NCBI RefSeq assembly: GCF_003046585.1
Contig: NZ_QAAE01000006.1
Span: 124,001 to 188,000 of the forward strand
DNA length: 64,000 nucleotides
Source of the DNA: Nitrosomonas aestuarii
GTDB taxonomy: Bacteria; Pseudomonadota; Gammaproteobacteria; Burkholderiales; Nitrosomonadaceae
Direction of reading: 5' to 3'
Positions 8,123 through 20,442 of this stretch are shown here, piece by piece. The first letter of the stretch is position 1, and each line of letters begins with the position of its first letter. The translations under genes and the position numbers were made by a program. Under the pieces are notes generated by a model. That model made no database searches. It was not told the DNA's origin and saw only the letters and a list, made by a program, of their open reading frames with translations.

Positions 8123-11023
8123 TTATTTTTGCATGACGCATGCCGCAATATTACAGGTATCGTGCAGCGCACCCGAAACAAAACGGTCCATTTTTGATAA
8201 CCATTTTGCCGGCATATAGTTTTCAGTGATATTGACCAGATTAACGCCGGTCAAATCTTTACGTTGCAAGACATCCTGCATCACCGTAAAGGCCAGTAAA
8301 TTTCCAAGGGTTAAATCGACCATCATTTCCATTTCGTTCGGATTGTGACTGCCGCCATAACTTCTTTCCATTAACAGCACTTGACCGGAGTCCAAAAGCT
8401 GCGAGGGCTGTAAGTGCTGCTTAATCTCGTGTCTGATTTTGACTGCAAAGCTTTCCTCCAGATTCCTGACAATATCATCCACTGCCTCCTGCGCTTTTAT
8501 CATGACCGAATCATTTGCCTCACGCATATCCAATGATAGTCTCACCTGCGCATAATTTTTGACAAAACTAACCGGCTCAATACGCCCAATGGTGATGCCT
8601 TCACCTCCAGCAGACACCTGAGCGGTCAATTCTCCAGCCGCAGCGGCCTGCAGAATACGCAAGATTTCTTCACCAAATTCGGGAGTAAAATTTTCAGCTT
8701 GTATGGCCAGGGTAACAGCAGCCTGACCGGGGATGACGTTACGGTTAGTACCAGGCTGAATGTCTATATCTCCAATTACTGATTGCAGCTCATTGAAATA
8801 CCCGGCGTTTTTTACAATCCAGTCATGGAATATACGCGCTAATCTCGCAATCCCGACACCGGGGTCTCGACGATCTGCTGTTGCTGTGGCACCGGCATGG
8901 TTTTTTTCTCCTTCCAGTTCGCAACGCAGTGCAAAACCCGGATTGGCATGACAATAACTATCACCAATCGGATGTATCATGCCCACTGTAAAACGTGTAT
9001 TCAAAAAAGGCGTTTGCTGAGTAAGTTCACGCAACCGGCAATTCATCTCCAAAGCAGCTTGCTCAGCCAGCAGTCCATCAAAGAAAAAATCTCTTTGATG
9101 AATACCCATAATTGTTCCAACTGTAATAATCGGTACACCCGCACGATCCAATACTGGCCCCTGCTCGATATGCCGCTCAAAAGTATGCCTGGTGAAGAAA
9201 TCCGTCGGGTTATAACAAGAATTAATCAAATCCTGGCCTGTTCCCTGTAATTCATGGGCCAGATTTATTCTGCCATCTTCACAGGCCATTTTGAATACCG
9301 TCAGACAGTCAATCAGTTTATCACCATAACGTTCACAATCTTGGTTAACCATGTTGTGAACCGATTCCGGTCTCGCATGACCTGCAACCGCAGCACTGCC
9401 AGACATGGAAACACCTTCGCCCGTAAATGTCATTTCTTCATTATTAAACGCGGTGACAGCAAGCCTGACCATGGAATCATCATCCGCTATTTTAATGTCA
9501 CAATATTCCTCCAGGTCAGCTATCAGTTCTGCTGTTTGAATGCCGCCCGTTACACCCAAGCGGCCATCGAACTTTCCGCCATCATTGACTGTATCTATGT
9601 GAGAACAATGATTCACGCTATGACGCAGTATATTCCTTATGTTAAGTTTTTTCTGGCTGAGCGCATTACGTTCTGTATGATTCAAACGTACACCATGTAT
9701 ATTCCCAACCTTGTCAATGAAAACGGAAAGCTGAACCTTGTTCATTTGCCGAATGGTTTCCAAGGCACATTTTTGAAACTGCACATTGAGCGCTCTGGCG
9801 TCAATATGGCCGTCATCTCGTGTAGCAAGCACGCCCAATTTATCAATGCGCCGTCGCTGCCGAACGCCGATGCCACGTAGCGGACTGTTTGCAGTCACAG
9901 TACGTAAATGTTCGCGCAAATCTTCCCCATTTTTTATTTTTTCAGCCAAGTATTGCAACGAATTAAAATATACAATTGTAATCGCGCAATCAGCCAGTGC
10001 CTCCAATTCTTTTTCAGCCCAAAATGCATCACCGGCCAAAATCTGCGCAAGCTGCAGCTTGTCCGCCAAGCTGTCAAGTTCAGTACGGATACTGCCTATA
10101 GCATGATGATGATTTTCACGCGCTTCGATTAATGCCGGTATATGTAAGTGAAATTCGTCCCCACTTCCCGTCAATTGTAATTTCTCATTTCGGTACTGCT
10201 CGTCTTCGTTATGAAAATTGTTAACATAACTCCAGGTATCAGGATCGCCTATGGAACCCGGTTCTGCCCCGGTTAACGACCGGATCAACTGATTATGTGC
10301 TTGTAGATCGATGTCTTGCAATCTGCTCGGAGATCCAAGTTTTTTTGAGACTTCAGTACGTTGATCTCGCGTTAGATACTCCGGGCGTAACCGGAAATGT
10401 CCCAATAAGTATGCAGTAAACAATAAAGATTCGGAAGCATCCAGTTTCTCGCGAAGCGCCTCGATAACAAAGGGCCCTGCGGGTTCCAGTGTTGGGTCGA
10501 TCACGCGCTCCACCACTCGTTGATGCACCTGATCCCAAAACTTCAGTACTGTAAAAACATGGCTTCGCGCCAGAACAAATTGAATTACTTTTTCGTGATG
10601 CAAGGCATATGCGCCCACCTGAATTGTTTTTTGAGTGGGATGCACATTTGCGACCACATTGGATAGCATTTTGCGTAACTGCGGATCGAGCAAATCACCC
10701 AGTTGAGCTAGCGGATTATGGGCGCGTAAAGCATGAGGACGCAAACGCATGTCAACTTGATCGAGTGCATCCGGCGACATATCACGCTCAAGAATCATAC
10801 CGCGTTGAATAGCCCAGCCGGGAATCTTCATCTCTATAAGCTGTTTGATAATCAGGCTGGTTTTTTTACCGCAACCATATTCAGCAACGGAATACGGAAG
10901 CGATAGATATGTGAGTATTATTTTAAAAATCGCTTCCTGTTCGGTTAGCAGCGGCAACCCTGAAGAAGCATCCTTTGCAATGGCAGCCGGCAGCCCATCA
11001 ATCGGTTCGCAATAAAATAACAT
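8123..11023 (-). CDS. Fusion: transglutaminase-like domain + M20 Zn amidohydrolase (HyuC/AmaB-like)
   Basis: Protein of 966 residues, more than twice the usual length of an M20 carbamoylase/hydantoinase-type hydrolase. Residues about 410-966 hold the M20 enzyme: SHIDTVNDGGKFDG (His475, Asp486), NNEE (Glu529-530), HIEQGP (His618), NHAGAT (His709) and the late metal ligand in GGSHNPNE. All metal and catalytic positions appear present, so hydrolysis of a carbamoyl- or acyl-amino compound is likely. Residues about 1-230 look like a transglutaminase/cysteine-protease fold: GCGKKTSLI..L..MKIPGW (Cys51), SHVFTVLKFW (His155) and VIDPT (Asp176). A helical linker (about 230-405) joins them. This N-terminal call is mine from pattern, not a family hit. 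Start ATG with GAGG five bases upstream. No signal peptide, so cytoplasmic. Divergent from acnA. Confidence 0.85.
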   Translation of the reverse strand: MLFYCEPIDGLPAAIAKDASSGLPLLTEQEAIFKIILTYLSLPYSVAEYGCGKKTSLIIKQLIEMKIPGWAIQRGMILERDMSPDALDQVDMRLRPHALRAHNPLAQLGDLLDPQLRKMLSNVVANVHPTQKTIQVGAYALHHEKVIQFVLARSHVFTVLKFWDQVHQRVVERVIDPTLEPAGPFVIEALREKLDASESLLFTAYLLGHFRLRPEYLTRDQRTEVSKKLGSPSRLQDIDLQAHNQLIRSLTGAEPGSIGDPDTWSYVNNFHNEDEQYRNEKLQLTGSGDEFHLHIPALIEARENHHHAIGSIRTELDSLADKLQLAQILAGDAFWAEKELEALADCAITIVYFNSLQYLAEKIKNGEDLREHLRTVTANSPLRGIGVRQRRRIDKLGVLATRDDGHIDARALNVQFQKCALETIRQMNKVQLSVFIDKVGNIHGVRLNHTERNALSQKKLNIRNILRHSVNHCSHIDTVNDGGKFDGRLGVTGGIQTAELIADLEEYCDIKIADDDSMVRLAVTAFNNEEMTFTGEGVSMSGSAAVAGHARPESVHNMVNQDCERYGDKLIDCLTVFKMACEDGRINLAHELQGTGQDLINSCYNPTDFFTRHTFERHIEQGPVLDRAGVPIITVGTIMGIHQRDFFFDGLLAEQAALEMNCRLRELTQQTPFLNTRFTVGMIHPIGDSYCHANPGFALRCELEGEKNHAGATATADRRDPGVGIARLARIFHDWIVKNAGYFNELQSVIGDIDIQPGTNRNVIPGQAAVTLAIQAENFTPEFGEEILRILQAAAAGELTAQVSAGGEGITIGRIEPVSFVKNYAQVRLSLDMREANDSVMIKAQEAVDDIVRNLEESFAVKIRHEIKQHLQPSQLLDSGQVLLMERSYGGSHNPNEMEMMVDLTLGNLLAFTVMQDVLQRKDLTGVNLVNITENYMPAKWLSKMDRFVSGALHDTCNIAACVMQK

Positions 11024-14612: not shown

Positions 14613-15314
14613 ATGAATGAACAAATATCAAACGAAGTATTCCGGAAAGAGACCTGTCCCTATGGCAAAAAAGCAGTCAAACTGCTTGATCAGCAAGGCG
14701 TAGATTACCAGGATCATATCTTCCAGTCCGAGAAGGATGAGGAAGATTTCAAAGCACGCTGGCGTGTTGATACTACACCGCAAATCTTTTTAAATGGCGC
14801 GCGTATTGGAGGCTATACAGAGCTGGCAGATCATTATGATGTAGAGACAGATAAGGATGAGGCTGAAGAAACTTCATATATTCCTGTAATCGCTGTTTTT
14901 GGCATCGCTCTCCTCATGGCGATACTCACACAGAATATCATGTACAGCTTTATGGGATATGCCTTGTGTCTATTAGCTTGTCTTAAGCTGATGGATCTGA
15001 ATGGTTTTGTAGAAGGTTTTAAAAAATATGATCTCATCACCAAAGTCTGGCCGTTTTATGGAAAAATTTATCCTTTTGCTGAATTGATTGCCGGACTGGG
15101 TTTTTTAGCACCGCAGTATCTTCATCTCACTGGTTGGTTAGCCTTGTTCGTCGGCATTGCCGGTGGCATTTCTATTTTCAAGGCGGTTTATATTGATAAA
15201 ACCGATTTAAACTGCGCCTGTATCGGCGGCGGATCCAACGTGCCGCTTGGGGCAGTGAGCTTCTCTGAAAATGCCATGATGGCGCTGATGGGCGCGTGGG
15301 TATTATTTATTTAG
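14613..15314 (+). CDS. Glutaredoxin-MauE/DoxX-type membrane fusion protein
   Basis: Protein of 233 residues. Residues 1-80 form a glutaredoxin domain (TCPYGKKAVKLL, TTPQIFLNGARIGG) whose active site reads Cys-Pro-Tyr-Gly (Cys15), so it lacks the second catalytic cysteine of dithiol glutaredoxins. Residues about 95-233 form four membrane helices of the MauE/DoxX class with a conserved cytoplasmic-type basic loop. Between helices 3 and 4 lies Cys201-Ala-Cys203 before a Gly-rich turn, a possible second redox pair. Such fusions are expected to pass electrons between thiols and the membrane quinone or vitamin-K-epoxide-reductase-like systems, which is inference here. Start supported by GGAG eight bases upstream. 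No operon partner. Confidence 0.88.
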   Translation: MNEQISNEVFRKETCPYGKKAVKLLDQQGVDYQDHIFQSEKDEEDFKARWRVDTTPQIFLNGARIGGYTELADHYDVETDKDEAEETSYIPVIAVFGIALLMAILTQNIMYSFMGYALCLLACLKLMDLNGFVEGFKKYDLITKVWPFYGKIYPFAELIAGLGFLAPQYLHLTGWLALFVGIAGGISIFKAVYIDKTDLNCACIGGGSNVPLGAVSFSENAMMALMGAWVLFI

Positions 15315-17013: not shown

Positions 17014-20000
17014 TTAGACTGCCTGATTGGTCTGGTCCAGCGCTGACAGCATATACGGATAGACATCTTTCACTGCATTTTTGCCAAATATGCAATCAAT
17101 ATGACCGTAACCAGGTATCACATGGCGCGCGTAGCCATCCGGCCCGTTGACTTCCACCAGCTTACTGAAGCTGCGTTCGGTGGATTCTGGAAGATAGCTG
17201 GCATTTTCCACACCGTGAATGAAAGTAATGGGAATCTTTAATTTATCCCAGTGCGGCGTATAAACATTTTTACCTTCCGCATTTACGATATGTTTCTCAC
17301 GGGCGCAAAGTGCCAGATGTCGAAAGATATCCATATGACAAATACCGAATAATTCATGCAAATTATCATGCGTCAGACGGTTTAGCTGGTCATGTTCGTA
17401 AAGCAGGGAATACATGAAACTGACACGGTGGCATACGGCACTTGCGCAGCGCTCTTCCACATCAAAATGTTGCAGATTGAGCGCCTTGTCATATAACTTG
17501 TTCAACCAACTGCTTTTATTGTCAGCATAAGCGGTGGCTGAATCGACGCCAATCGCATCCAGCAGTGACGGCAAATGCAAACCAGCTTTTGCTTTTACAA
17601 TCGGCGCGACGATATGATCCGGTCCGATTTGTGAAGCTACCGCAGCGCGAACATGTTGCAATCCGCTCATCATGGCCATGAAAAATGTGGTGGATCCGGC
17701 GCAATGAACCAATGCTTGGATATCCGGGCTACCTGTGGCATCCAAAATAATCTTAACAGCCGCCGGATAATCGTAACGGGCAATGTCATCAAGCGTCCAC
17801 CCCTGCTTCGCACTGGACAAAGCAATACTGATGCGCATTTCCAGCAACCAACAGTCATAGCCGTTGATATAGAGATATTCCAGCAGATTGGTATCGATAG
17901 TATCCGTCGTAAAAATTTGACTGGAAACACCGGCACCATGCACCATCAGCAGTGGCCCTTTTTTACCCCCCTGATAACGGGTAAGGCGCAGAGGAACGCC
18001 GTCGCTTGTATTGAAATGATACACTTCCGGTGCGCCGACACGCAGACTGCGCTTTTTACGCGGCGGCGCATCTGCATCCAGGTATTGTGGAGGCACCAGC
18101 ACGCCACCGTAAATATGGTAGAGATCTCCGGCGAAATAAATACCGAAACGTGCAATGGCTTGCAGCCGATCGGTCATAGTTAGTGCACCTATTGCGTCAA
18201 TAGTGGTGATCTGGCGGACAAAATCAAGCGGCTGAATGTACAACATCCCGCGCCCTTTAACTGCAGCAGCATCATCCGCACCGTCGTAGATAGTGATATA
18301 TAGTTGAGTAGTATCAGACCAGATATCGATACCTGGGTCATTATGAATGATTTTGTGACCTTCGAAATACCAGGTTTTGCCGTCTTCTGCGTACATCTGG
18401 AAACGGTATTTCATGTATTCCTGACCCACCTGCTTGGGATCACGTGCGAACAGATTAAAAACGCCTTGTGTGACAGTCAAGGGGGATGCCGACAGGCCGG
18501 GTGCAGTGACTGTACCCACCATGCCGCCATTATAGCCACCGCCTTGCTTAATTAAGGCATCGAGATCATTGACACTGACGGTCAGTGTAAAATCCAGACT
18601 ATTACCGCCTTCCTTACCGGAGCGTACGGCTTGCTCATAATCACCGTGTTCAGCCCACCAGCCGCGCATTGTTTCGGTAAAGCGCACGCCGACGGTGGCC
18701 GGTTCCGCTTCACGAGGCTGCGAAAGACTGGTGAAATCATAGGTGTAACCCTCAGCTTCGGCGAAAAGCTCCATGCTGCGCTCAGTAAGCGCGGAAATGG
18801 TCAACAATGGATTAACGCCCAATGAGCGCGGCACAATGCTGCCGTCAGCCACATGAAGTCCTTCATGCACCGTGGTGCCCGCCGTGCCGGTAAACACCCT
18901 GCCGCGGTGATCTACCACGCCGGATTGTGCATCTTTGCCCATGCAGCAACCACCCAGCGGGTGCACAGTAACCAGACTGTTATCCAGTTCTTTTGTCCAG
19001 ATTGGATTCTGAACGTAGGTACCGCCATTGGCGGCGGTAACCTGCTCCATAAAATCGCTGTCACGTTTAAACACGGGTTTGTCCCCGACATCAGGCCAAT
19101 CGACACTGATGCAATTATTGTGCATGGTCAAGCGGCCATCAGAGCCGTCATGGCTCATAATCAAATAAACTTGGGTATTATGAACCGCACCGTGGTAAGC
19201 GCCACGCACCATACTTTCCAGAACGCGTCCATGTTCGCTGATTTCATCGTTCAGGCCACTATCCGTATCCTTGCCAATCAAACCGGCAGCCGATGCCATC
19301 AGTCCTGGCAGAATACTGCTGAGCGCACCGGGCAGGCTGCCCTCTTCCAGAATTAAACCCTGTTCCAGATCTGCGGTTGCGCGATCATCAATCATGGTCG
19401 TGATGCAGGGCCCGACCGGATCAATCTCGCCTACCGGATGATTGCCAAAACCGATCGCGTTAATTGGCATATCATTGTTAAAACCGAACCCCAGCACATC
19501 GCCATTCGATGAAAAGTGCTCGCCGACTTTATCAGAAAGGGGCAAACCATTTTCTTTCGAGCGCAATAGAATTTCTGTACTGCCAAGCGTACCTGCACCG
19601 AGAAATACCTGCTTACAACGCAACACAAGATCGGGCGCATCGAAAGTTTCCCGCCCGACTTCCATGATCTGGCAATGCACCAGCCAGTCATTACCGTCTT
19701 TTTCCAGCCAGCGTACGGCTATCTGGGTGTAGATTTCCACGCCGTTGTTCCAAGCGTCCGGCAGGTAATTCATCAGCGTAGTATTCTTGGCACCGTAGTT
19801 GCAACCGGATACGCAGTCACCGCAGTAGGTACAGGCCGGCTGATGCACGCCAGCTTCATTAATCCGGTCTTTGAACGTTACATTGATCGGCGGAAAGGTG
19901 ACCGGTCGGTTAACCGCTTTGGCGGAATTTTTCTGCGCTTCCGCCTTGGGCAGCGTCGGTACGCCATGCTGACCATCCGGGAACGGCTGCGCGCCAAGCA

Positions 20001-20442
20001 TGGTCATTGCGCGGTCATAACAGGCAGACATCCGCTCTCTGTCCTGACGGATTTCATCCGGCCAGCGCGGGTCGTCAAAGACGCGGTCATCCGCTTTCAG
20101 AGACACATTGGCATTGATCAGCGAAGTGCCGCCTAAACCGCAACCAACAATAACATTCATGTCCTTGCCGGCATACAGATTGAACAGGCCGGTATGGTCA
20201 CCAATATGTTTGTCATGCAGGTTGATTTGAAACTCTTTACCTGCTTCGAGCAGGGTATCAGGGTACTCGCCGGTCTGGATTTCCCTGCCGCGCTCCAGCA
20301 GACACACGTCCAGCTTGCTGCCGTCGCCGCGCTTCATTCTTCCCAAACGGGATGCGGCGATAGCACCGCCATAACCTGAACCAATTACAATTGCATCATA
20401 TCGATCTTTTAAACGGGTGCGAGGTGAGGCAAGGCGTTTCAT
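17014..20442 (-). CDS. GMC oxidoreductase fused to an alpha/beta hydrolase (cholesterol-oxidase-like)
   Basis: Protein of 1142 residues. Residues 1-560 are a FAD-dependent GMC oxidoreductase: GSGYGGAIAA dinucleotide motif (about 21-30), a four-Cys-like segment CTYCGDCVSGC, and the C-terminal HPLGGCCMG active-site histidine, all typical of cholesterol-oxidase class proteins. A beta-rich middle region (about 580-800) has no clear function. Residues about 830-1142 are an alpha/beta hydrolase: oxyanion-side MVHGAG, nucleophile elbow VHCAGS with Cys914 in place of the usual Ser, and GYGHIDC with the catalytic His. Likely substrate is a hydrophobic alcohol/ester, possibly a sterol or hopanoid-type lipid; that is inference. 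GGAG eight bases before the ATG. No signal peptide. Single gene, divergent from a secreted cyclophilin. Confidence 0.9.
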   Translation of the reverse strand: MKRLASPRTRLKDRYDAIVIGSGYGGAIAASRLGRMKRGDGSKLDVCLLERGREIQTGEYPDTLLEAGKEFQINLHDKHIGDHTGLFNLYAGKDMNVIVGCGLGGTSLINANVSLKADDRVFDDPRWPDEIRQDRERMSACYDRAMTMLGAQPFPDGQHGVPTLPKAEAQKNSAKAVNRPVTFPPINVTFKDRINEAGVHQPACTYCGDCVSGCNYGAKNTTLMNYLPDAWNNGVEIYTQIAVRWLEKDGNDWLVHCQIMEVGRETFDAPDLVLRCKQVFLGAGTLGSTEILLRSKENGLPLSDKVGEHFSSNGDVLGFGFNNDMPINAIGFGNHPVGEIDPVGPCITTMIDDRATADLEQGLILEEGSLPGALSSILPGLMASAAGLIGKDTDSGLNDEISEHGRVLESMVRGAYHGAVHNTQVYLIMSHDGSDGRLTMHNNCISVDWPDVGDKPVFKRDSDFMEQVTAANGGTYVQNPIWTKELDNSLVTVHPLGGCCMGKDAQSGVVDHRGRVFTGTAGTTVHEGLHVADGSIVPRSLGVNPLLTISALTERSMELFAEAEGYTYDFTSLSQPREAEPATVGVRFTETMRGWWAEHGDYEQAVRSGKEGGNSLDFTLTVSVNDLDALIKQGGGYNGGMVGTVTAPGLSASPLTVTQGVFNLFARDPKQVGQEYMKYRFQMYAEDGKTWYFEGHKIIHNDPGIDIWSDTTQLYITIYDGADDAAAVKGRGMLYIQPLDFVRQITTIDAIGALTMTDRLQAIARFGIYFAGDLYHIYGGVLVPPQYLDADAPPRKKRSLRVGAPEVYHFNTSDGVPLRLTRYQGGKKGPLLMVHGAGVSSQIFTTDTIDTNLLEYLYINGYDCWLLEMRISIALSSAKQGWTLDDIARYDYPAAVKIILDATGSPDIQALVHCAGSTTFFMAMMSGLQHVRAAVASQIGPDHIVAPIVKAKAGLHLPSLLDAIGVDSATAYADNKSSWLNKLYDKALNLQHFDVEERCASAVCHRVSFMYSLLYEHDQLNRLTHDNLHELFGICHMDIFRHLALCAREKHIVNAEGKNVYTPHWDKLKIPITFIHGVENASYLPESTERSFSKLVEVNGPDGYARHVIPGYGHIDCIFGKNAVKDVYPYMLSALDQTNQAV

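Follow-up and report, generated by a model that had tools for sequence, protein, structure and literature searches.

The 64,000-nucleotide stretch of Nitrosomonas aestuarii DNA analysed here (the window; contig NZ_QAAE01000006.1, positions 124,001 to 188,000) carries, at 8123..11023 on the minus strand, a gene whose predicted product joins an N-terminal amidase-like domain to a carbamoyl-amidohydrolase of the M20 type. We propose that this fusion is a bifunctional amidohydrolase for the two-step breakdown of an amino acid that is N-carbamoylated and carries a carboxamide cap, a reading of activity and substrate to which we give a probability of about 0.55. In the first step, the N-terminal domain would attack the carboxamide by means of Cys51, His155 and Asp176, freeing ammonia; in the second, the dinuclear-metal M20 part would hold the freed carboxylate through Arg834 and hydrolyse the N-carbamoyl group, leaving the amino acid along with ammonia and CO2. 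Breakdown of a carbamoyl amino-acid amide would need a glutamine-amidase-like activity and an N-carbamoyl hydrolase, the two kinds of domain that the fusion joins. The substrate would probably be made by two partner enzymes of the same genomes, a carbamoyltransferase whose acceptor site is altered and an AsnB-like amidotransferase, encoded next to a sodium:solute symporter. The initial annotation of the window had recognised the two-domain architecture; what goes beyond it are partner genes at other sites of the genome and a swap of the final two segments of the M20 half.

The amidase-like domain and the M20 half

The 966-aa open reading frame (ORF) begins with ATG, runs from 11023 to 8123 and is open throughout. 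One scan of a species-genome collection returned full-length relatives at 15 loci (37–73 % identity), which rules out a chance ORF or a wrong start. Their hosts are Nitrosomonas marina Nm71 and Nm22, Lacimicrobium alkaliphilum, Bowmanella dokdonensis, three Bacteroidota (one of them Flavilitoribacter nigricans), three spirochaete metagenome-assembled genomes (MAGs), three Verrucomicrobia (two Opitutia/Opitutales MAGs and strain E54) and two unclassified bacterial MAGs, so the domain order occurs beyond Nitrosomonas, in several phyla and in Gammaproteobacteria. Because the search relied on five exact patterns of 8 residues each, distant members could have escaped it, and so could stand-alone N-domains, of which none turned up. 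Together with the window protein, the 15 relatives form the 16-sequence set used below. All 16 possess the N-terminal domain; the possibility, kept in view by the initial annotation, that every homologue starts near residue 400 is thereby excluded.

Residues 16–250 (10274..10978, minus strand, as are all features of the gene) form a predicted protein-glutaminase-like domain of the transglutaminase superfamily. When residues 1–250 were modelled alone from the 16 sequences, the best model reached a predicted local distance difference test (pLDDT) score of 84.1 and a predicted template modelling score (pTM) of 0.80; two of the five models reached only pLDDT 53 and 49, and residues 42–50, adjoining Cys51, lie below 50 in the domain model. 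Cys51 (10871..10873), the proposed nucleophile, sits at the N-terminal end of a helix in the models (residues 50–64 in the full model, 53–64 in the domain model), His155 (10559..10561) starts strand 154–164 and Asp176 (10496..10498) directly follows strand 169–175. A Cys at a helix start, a His starting a strand and an Asp after the next strand is the layout expected of the transglutaminase superfamily. The domain is followed by a connector (residues 251–389, 9857..10273) that is mostly helical by DSSP of the model and in which G259 D260 P261, W264 and N268 N269 are invariant across the alignment.

Foldseek placed 3a56 first for this domain (E 5.4e-4, probability 1.00; template modelling score 0.35–0.39 and whole-alignment root-mean-square deviation (rmsd) 14.2). 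On re-examination of Foldseek's list with VIA, a residue-range alignment of residues 21–214 with residues 2..148 of 2zk9, the protein-glutaminase of Chryseobacterium proteolyticum, gave a Z of 10.0 (130 aligned, rmsd 3.1), followed by NTAQ1 (4w79, 7.3), SseI (6.2), the C-terminal region of the Pasteurella toxin (5.5), PNGase (5.3), vasohibin (5.3), transglutaminase 3 (4.7), the amide synthase GdmF (4.6) and NlpC/P60 (4xcm, 2.9). Within this list, an NlpC/P60 domain or a plain transglutaminase, both of which the initial annotation had considered, is a weaker match than protein-glutaminase; peptidase C39, its third candidate, is absent from the Foldseek-derived list, which does not exclude that family. 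What the initial annotation took for a peptide- or amide-cleaving or -ligating domain is thus predicted to be of an amide-cleaving type, closest in kind to a glutamine deamidase and less so to peptidases or ligases.

The assignment has its counterweights. A Z of 10.0 is only slightly above the best Z of 7–8 that the tool quotes as typical of models without a clear match, PF18626 (Gln_deamidase_2) matches weakly in 4/16 members (best E 0.043) and falls short of a curated-level match, and a Pfam scan of the window protein itself returned no PF18626 match. An hmmsearch of PDB sequences with the N-domain profile returned only leucine-rich repeats, protein-glutaminase not being listed. We regard the model-based signal for a protein-glutaminase fold as moderate; with the conserved triad, the models support a predicted Cys-His-Asp amidase of the transglutaminase superfamily, nearest in kind to a glutamine deamidase.

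Protein-glutaminase (2zk9, 3a54) shares with the domain the predicted fold and the presence of Cys, His and Asp in this order. According to PMC4214742, its triad is Cys156, His197 and Asp217, so that the His-to-Asp spacing is nearly the same (20 residues, against 21 in the fusion) whereas the Cys-to-His spacing is 41 residues against 104. The fusion domain also differs in being only 16 % identical, in lacking a significant Pfam match and in being joined to a metalloenzyme. NTAQ1 (triad Cys28/His81/Asp97, same paper) likewise has a Cys-His-Asp glutamine amidase fold, but is 6 % identical and, as a human enzyme of the N-end rule pathway, stands alone. The presence of transglutaminase 3 and GdmF in the fold list, together with the position of the gene between two synthesis genes at two Bacteroidota loci (L033 and L036), would fit a domain that transfers instead of hydrolysing, as a transglutaminase or amide synthase does, and hence a biosynthetic or modifying fusion. 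We consider this improbable, as the top fold matches, at Z 10.0 and 7.3, are hydrolytic glutamine amidases.

Residues 390–966 (8126..9856) form the divergent M20 part, of the hydantoinase/carbamoylase type. In the full model (pLDDT 86.6, pTM 0.84) this half has the catalytic and dimerisation domain fold of that family, matching 8c46 (VIA Z 25.5, 349 aligned, rmsd 2.6), 8apz (25.5, 351 aligned, rmsd 2.7) and the carbamoylase 5i4m (about 25). By homology, the metal ligands are His475 (9599..9601, in SHIDTV), Asp486 (9566..9568, in GGKFDG), the base and metal ligand pair Glu529-Glu530 (9434..9439, in NNEEM), His618 (9170..9172, in ERHIEQGP) and a last one, His954 (8162..8164). The triad and the M20 residues are invariant in 16/16 sequences (Cys51, His155, Asp176, His475, Asp477, Asp486, Glu529, Glu530, His618, Gln621, His709, Asn762, Asp832, Arg834, His893, His954 and Asp955). 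The initial annotation had inferred a transglutaminase-type Cys-His-Asp domain joined to an M20 carbamoyl/acyl-amino hydrolase with its metal residues kept; fold matches and conservation bear this out, and the codons of Cys51, His155, Asp176, His475, Asp486, Glu529/530 and His618 stand in the ORF where it had placed them.

The N-carbamoyl-L-amino acid and beta-alanine amidohydrolases (8c46, 8apz and 3n5f; fold Z 22.9–25.5) share with the fusion the metal ligands and the HIEQGP, NHAG, NxIPG and DxR motifs. Unlike them, the fusion has its final two segments exchanged, a 390-residue N-terminal addition, an insertion of ~45–55 residues between 640 and 700 and an extra strand-helix region before DxR. 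Also unlike ordinary M20 carbamoylases, it fails to reach the cut-offs of all the NCBIfam models that it matches (TIGR01879, 86.3 against 204; NF006771, 100.6 against 399); Pfam cut-offs are likewise not reached, and the window protein has no match to the Pfam Peptidase_M20 model up to E 10. These missed cut-offs count against the two-step reading. NF010373, 'unknown domain/N-carbamoyl-L-amino acid hydrolase fusion protein', also describes an N-terminal domain ahead of a carbamoylase, but the fusion scores 46.1 bits where 1087 is required and its best stretch, 403–662, lies inside the M20 part. We interpret the M20 half as a divergent N-carbamoyl-amino-acid hydrolase with predicted activity.

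Arg834 (8522..8524), within SxDxR, aligns by hidden Markov model with the DxR arginine of carbamoylases, which we take to be Arg291 in 8c46. PMC10952681 describes Arg291 as binding the substrate carboxylate. Because Arg834 aligns with a carboxylate-binding arginine, the M20 part would be expected to need a free carboxylate in its substrate, and hence to follow the removal of the amide. Separately, residues 805–876 (8396–8611) form a second strand-helix region matching the same profile positions, 256–290, as the end of residues 697–778, and the dimerisation region may for this reason hold an internal repeat.

Exchanged segments at the end of the M20 half

Motif order and profile matches place the element that ordinarily closes the fold, made up of a strand, the GGSHNPNE loop and a helix, at 8249..8398 (segment 1), ahead of SGALHDTCNIA with His954 at 8138..8197 (segment 2), which normally precedes segment 1 and here forms the extreme C-terminus. 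In 16/16 fusions GGSH stands ~60 residues ahead of SGALHD, the latter at the protein end, whereas in 29/29 ordinary relatives SGAxHD lies ahead of the SH motif of the GxSH segment (a narrower regular expression found both C-terminal motifs in 23/29). This arrangement refines two earlier readings. The 'late His' of the initial annotation is present in all 16 sequences and, by alignment with the carbamoylase SGAGHD, is most likely His954 rather than His893; the M20 half is of the carbamoyl-hydrolase type as it had stated, but not a plain M20. A sequencing or assembly artefact is ruled out, the exchange being identical in 16/16 sequences.

A profile built from the 29 relatives matched the window protein out of order, residues 888–918 aligning to positions 375–406 and residues 944–962 to positions 347–365, each match being weak alone (1.3 and 0.3 bits). 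When the segments were returned in silico to the ordinary order, the score rose in 16/16 fusions, by 5.2–21.1 bits; the same kind of exchange lowered the score of the ordinary proteins by 36–50 bits (29/29), a partly circular comparison as these proteins built the profile. None of 480 random equal-size exchanges reached the true gain of its sequence, although some gained up to 14 bits and the margin for one fusion, L040, was only 0.2 bits. With the sequential aligner, the alignments to 8c46 and 8apz extend to model residue 964 and end at chain residue 371–372, and those to 5i4m and 5thw end at model residue 923–925 and extend to chain residue 425–426. From these ranges, both displaced segments would sit in their usual places in the predicted fold.

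The exchange could instead have moved the metal-binding His to the C-terminus at the cost of catalysis, leaving an M20 half that is dead or merely structural. The GGSHNP loop is indeed of low confidence, with pLDDT <50 at 890–896 in the full model; every ligand, His954 included, is nevertheless invariant in 16/16 and the alignment ranges fit both segments at the usual places, so we judge loss of catalysis to be very improbable.

The partner gene cluster and the proposed compound

The Bacteroidota loci L033 and L036 hold, in this order, genes for a small protein, an SSF symporter, the carbamoyltransferase, the fusion and the AsnB-like amidotransferase. A search with the L033 carbamoyltransferase found a close match in 15/16 fusion genomes (46–80 % identity, the query's own being 100 %), and a search with an AsnB-like query likewise in 15/16 (54–74 %, the query's own 100 %); weaker carbamoyltransferase matches, at 22–42 %, are PyrB- or ArgF-like. 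In the N. aestuarii genome both genes lie on another contig than the fusion, where a small protein, an SSF symporter, the altered carbamoyltransferase and the AsnB-like amidotransferase occupy 152406–157510 of contig G000:C2 (5907–11011 of locus L076). Across the 15 clusters compared (13 fetched, plus L033 and L036), 14 include the sodium:solute (SSF) symporter and 12 the small protein ahead of it.

The partner carbamoyltransferases keep the carbamoyl-phosphate site (STRTR and HPTQ) in 15/15, as they do the MR(T/A)V arginine, and in 15/15 the TRxQ of aspartate carbamoyltransferase is replaced by N(S/A)I(A/S), as NSIA or NAIS, a change also seen against the E. coli chains. We take the aspartate-binding residues of TRxQ to be Arg229 and Gln231 of the E. 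coli enzyme. The L033 protein scores below both the aspartate and the ornithine carbamoyltransferase cut-offs. Since STRTR and HPTQ are kept and TRxQ is replaced, these enzymes should, from their motifs, transfer carbamoyl, but probably not to aspartate.

With E limited to 1e-60 at most, so as to exclude PyrB and ArgF, 4/85 genomes of the genus have the carbamoyltransferase, among them all three fusion holders (hypergeometric p 4e-5, ignoring shared descent; two of the three holders are named Nitrosomonas marina); in the phylum it occurs in 2/398 genomes. Such co-occurrence bears on another explanation, in which the substrates of the fusion are different carbamoyl or amide compounds, such as N-carbamoyl peptides or the ureides derived from hydantoins or pyrimidines, and its link to the cluster reflects a shared lifestyle. 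The fusion lies within the cluster at only 2/15 loci and 8/15 clusters already hold an ordinary M20, as this explanation would have it; we nonetheless think it unlikely, given co-occurrence in 15/16 genomes over several phyla, against a carbamoyltransferase in so few genomes of the phylum, and the genus result.

Those same two counts also weigh against the two-step reading itself, as do several other observations. With an ordinary M20 adjoining in 8/15 clusters, the fusion is not simply its replacement: plain substitution fits the other 7/15 but not the 8 that have both. One fusion holder (G1014, locus L039) lacks both the close carbamoyltransferase and the AsnB-like gene, and no fusion was found in two cluster holders, by the search of the genus in G307 and by N-domain profile in G499. 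Pairwise identities, compared over 15 genomes with L039 left out for want of partners, correlate moderately between fusion and carbamoyltransferase (r 0.71; 0.84 between fusion and AsnB-like protein), compared with 0.96 between carbamoyltransferase and AsnB-like protein, which suggests that the histories of fusion and cluster are partly separate. The naming of the compound below, moreover, derives from the chemistry of the gene set.

Among the M20 proteins, group c4 has 10 members, two of which are the L033 and L036 fusions. An isochorismatase-family protein accompanies an ordinary M20 in 5/15 clusters; Pfam confirms all 8 ordinary M20 and all 5 isochorismatase-family proteins, and the two together perhaps perform the same two steps by unrelated means. 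The clusters of G307 (L123, 6049–12831) and G499 (L125, 4806–12784) have an ordinary M20 nearby, their AsnB-like proteins being assigned by reading only.

The two-step reading leads us to suggest, tentatively and at somewhat less than even odds, N-alpha-carbamoyl-glutamine 1-amide or a close analogue as the compound: its carbamoyl and alpha-amide are the groups that would be attached by the partner enzymes and taken off again by the fusion, which would in this way recycle a salt-protecting solute. A carbamoyl on the nitrogen and an amide on the carboxylate make an uncharged amino acid derivative. Ectothiorhodospira marismortui is the known producer, and several fusion holders, judging by their names, presumably come from marine or soda-lake settings. 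This osmolyte was described in 1991 (cited in PMC1224877; see also PMC7824335). The literature searched, mostly without subscription papers and in part as excerpts, contained no gene for synthesis or breakdown of carbamoyl-glutamine amide, nor such genes in connection with a related dipeptide amide, and no description of the fusion or of a permuted M20.

Distribution, neighbourhood and history of the fusion

A search of the N. aestuarii genome with the whole protein (E 0.001) matched only the protein itself; a second M20 carbamoylase of the fusion kind is therefore not seen there. The full-length fusion occurs in 3/85 genomes of the genus, its own included (the other two at 73 % identity), and two further genomes give merely short matches, to the M20 part. 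The N-domain profile (residues 1–390) matched 1/398 genomes in the phylum and 1/274 in the class, each time its own. In a set of 300 genomes from the order, the whole protein gave matches in 19, one of them its own genome and the other 18 restricted to parts of the M20 half. A phage gene and a plasmid gene were both rejected: the phage collection gave no match, and although 51 plasmid records matched, none of these matches extended over 80 % of the query; the 20 listed all fall within residues 329–775.

Over the same 15 genomes, the identities of the N-terminal and M20 halves run parallel (r 0.95), which suggests a single old fusion event, inherited since as a unit. No neighbour of the fusion is conserved across phyla: shared gene groups are confined to the three spirochaete loci, pairs of Bacteroidota and one Nitrosomonas pair (L032 and the window). 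An operon with the window neighbours was considered and set aside, as the seven scanned (aconitase, glutaredoxin-MauE, SelO and others) suggested no pathway, and promoter- and terminator-like signals were not above those of shuffled sequences. In the N. marina Nm71 contig (L031, 2772–10081), which appears as viral in IMG/VR, small minus-strand ORFs come after the fusion, and for these two reasons the gene may lie there at a prophage edge. Elsewhere in the window, 14613–15311 encodes a glutaredoxin domain joined to a MauE-like membrane domain, and 17017–20442 a 1142-aa protein whose first half is a GMC oxidoreductase by Pfam and whose second half resembles an alpha/beta hydrolase by reading only.

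The conserved exchange of two core M20 segments is a natural experiment on how far this fold tolerates rearrangement, and the fusion enzyme would be a ready-made cascade of amidase and L-carbamoylase. If the proposed function is true, the fusion and its partners are candidate genes for the osmolyte described in 1991, and would place that osmolyte in an ammonia oxidiser and in several other phyla.

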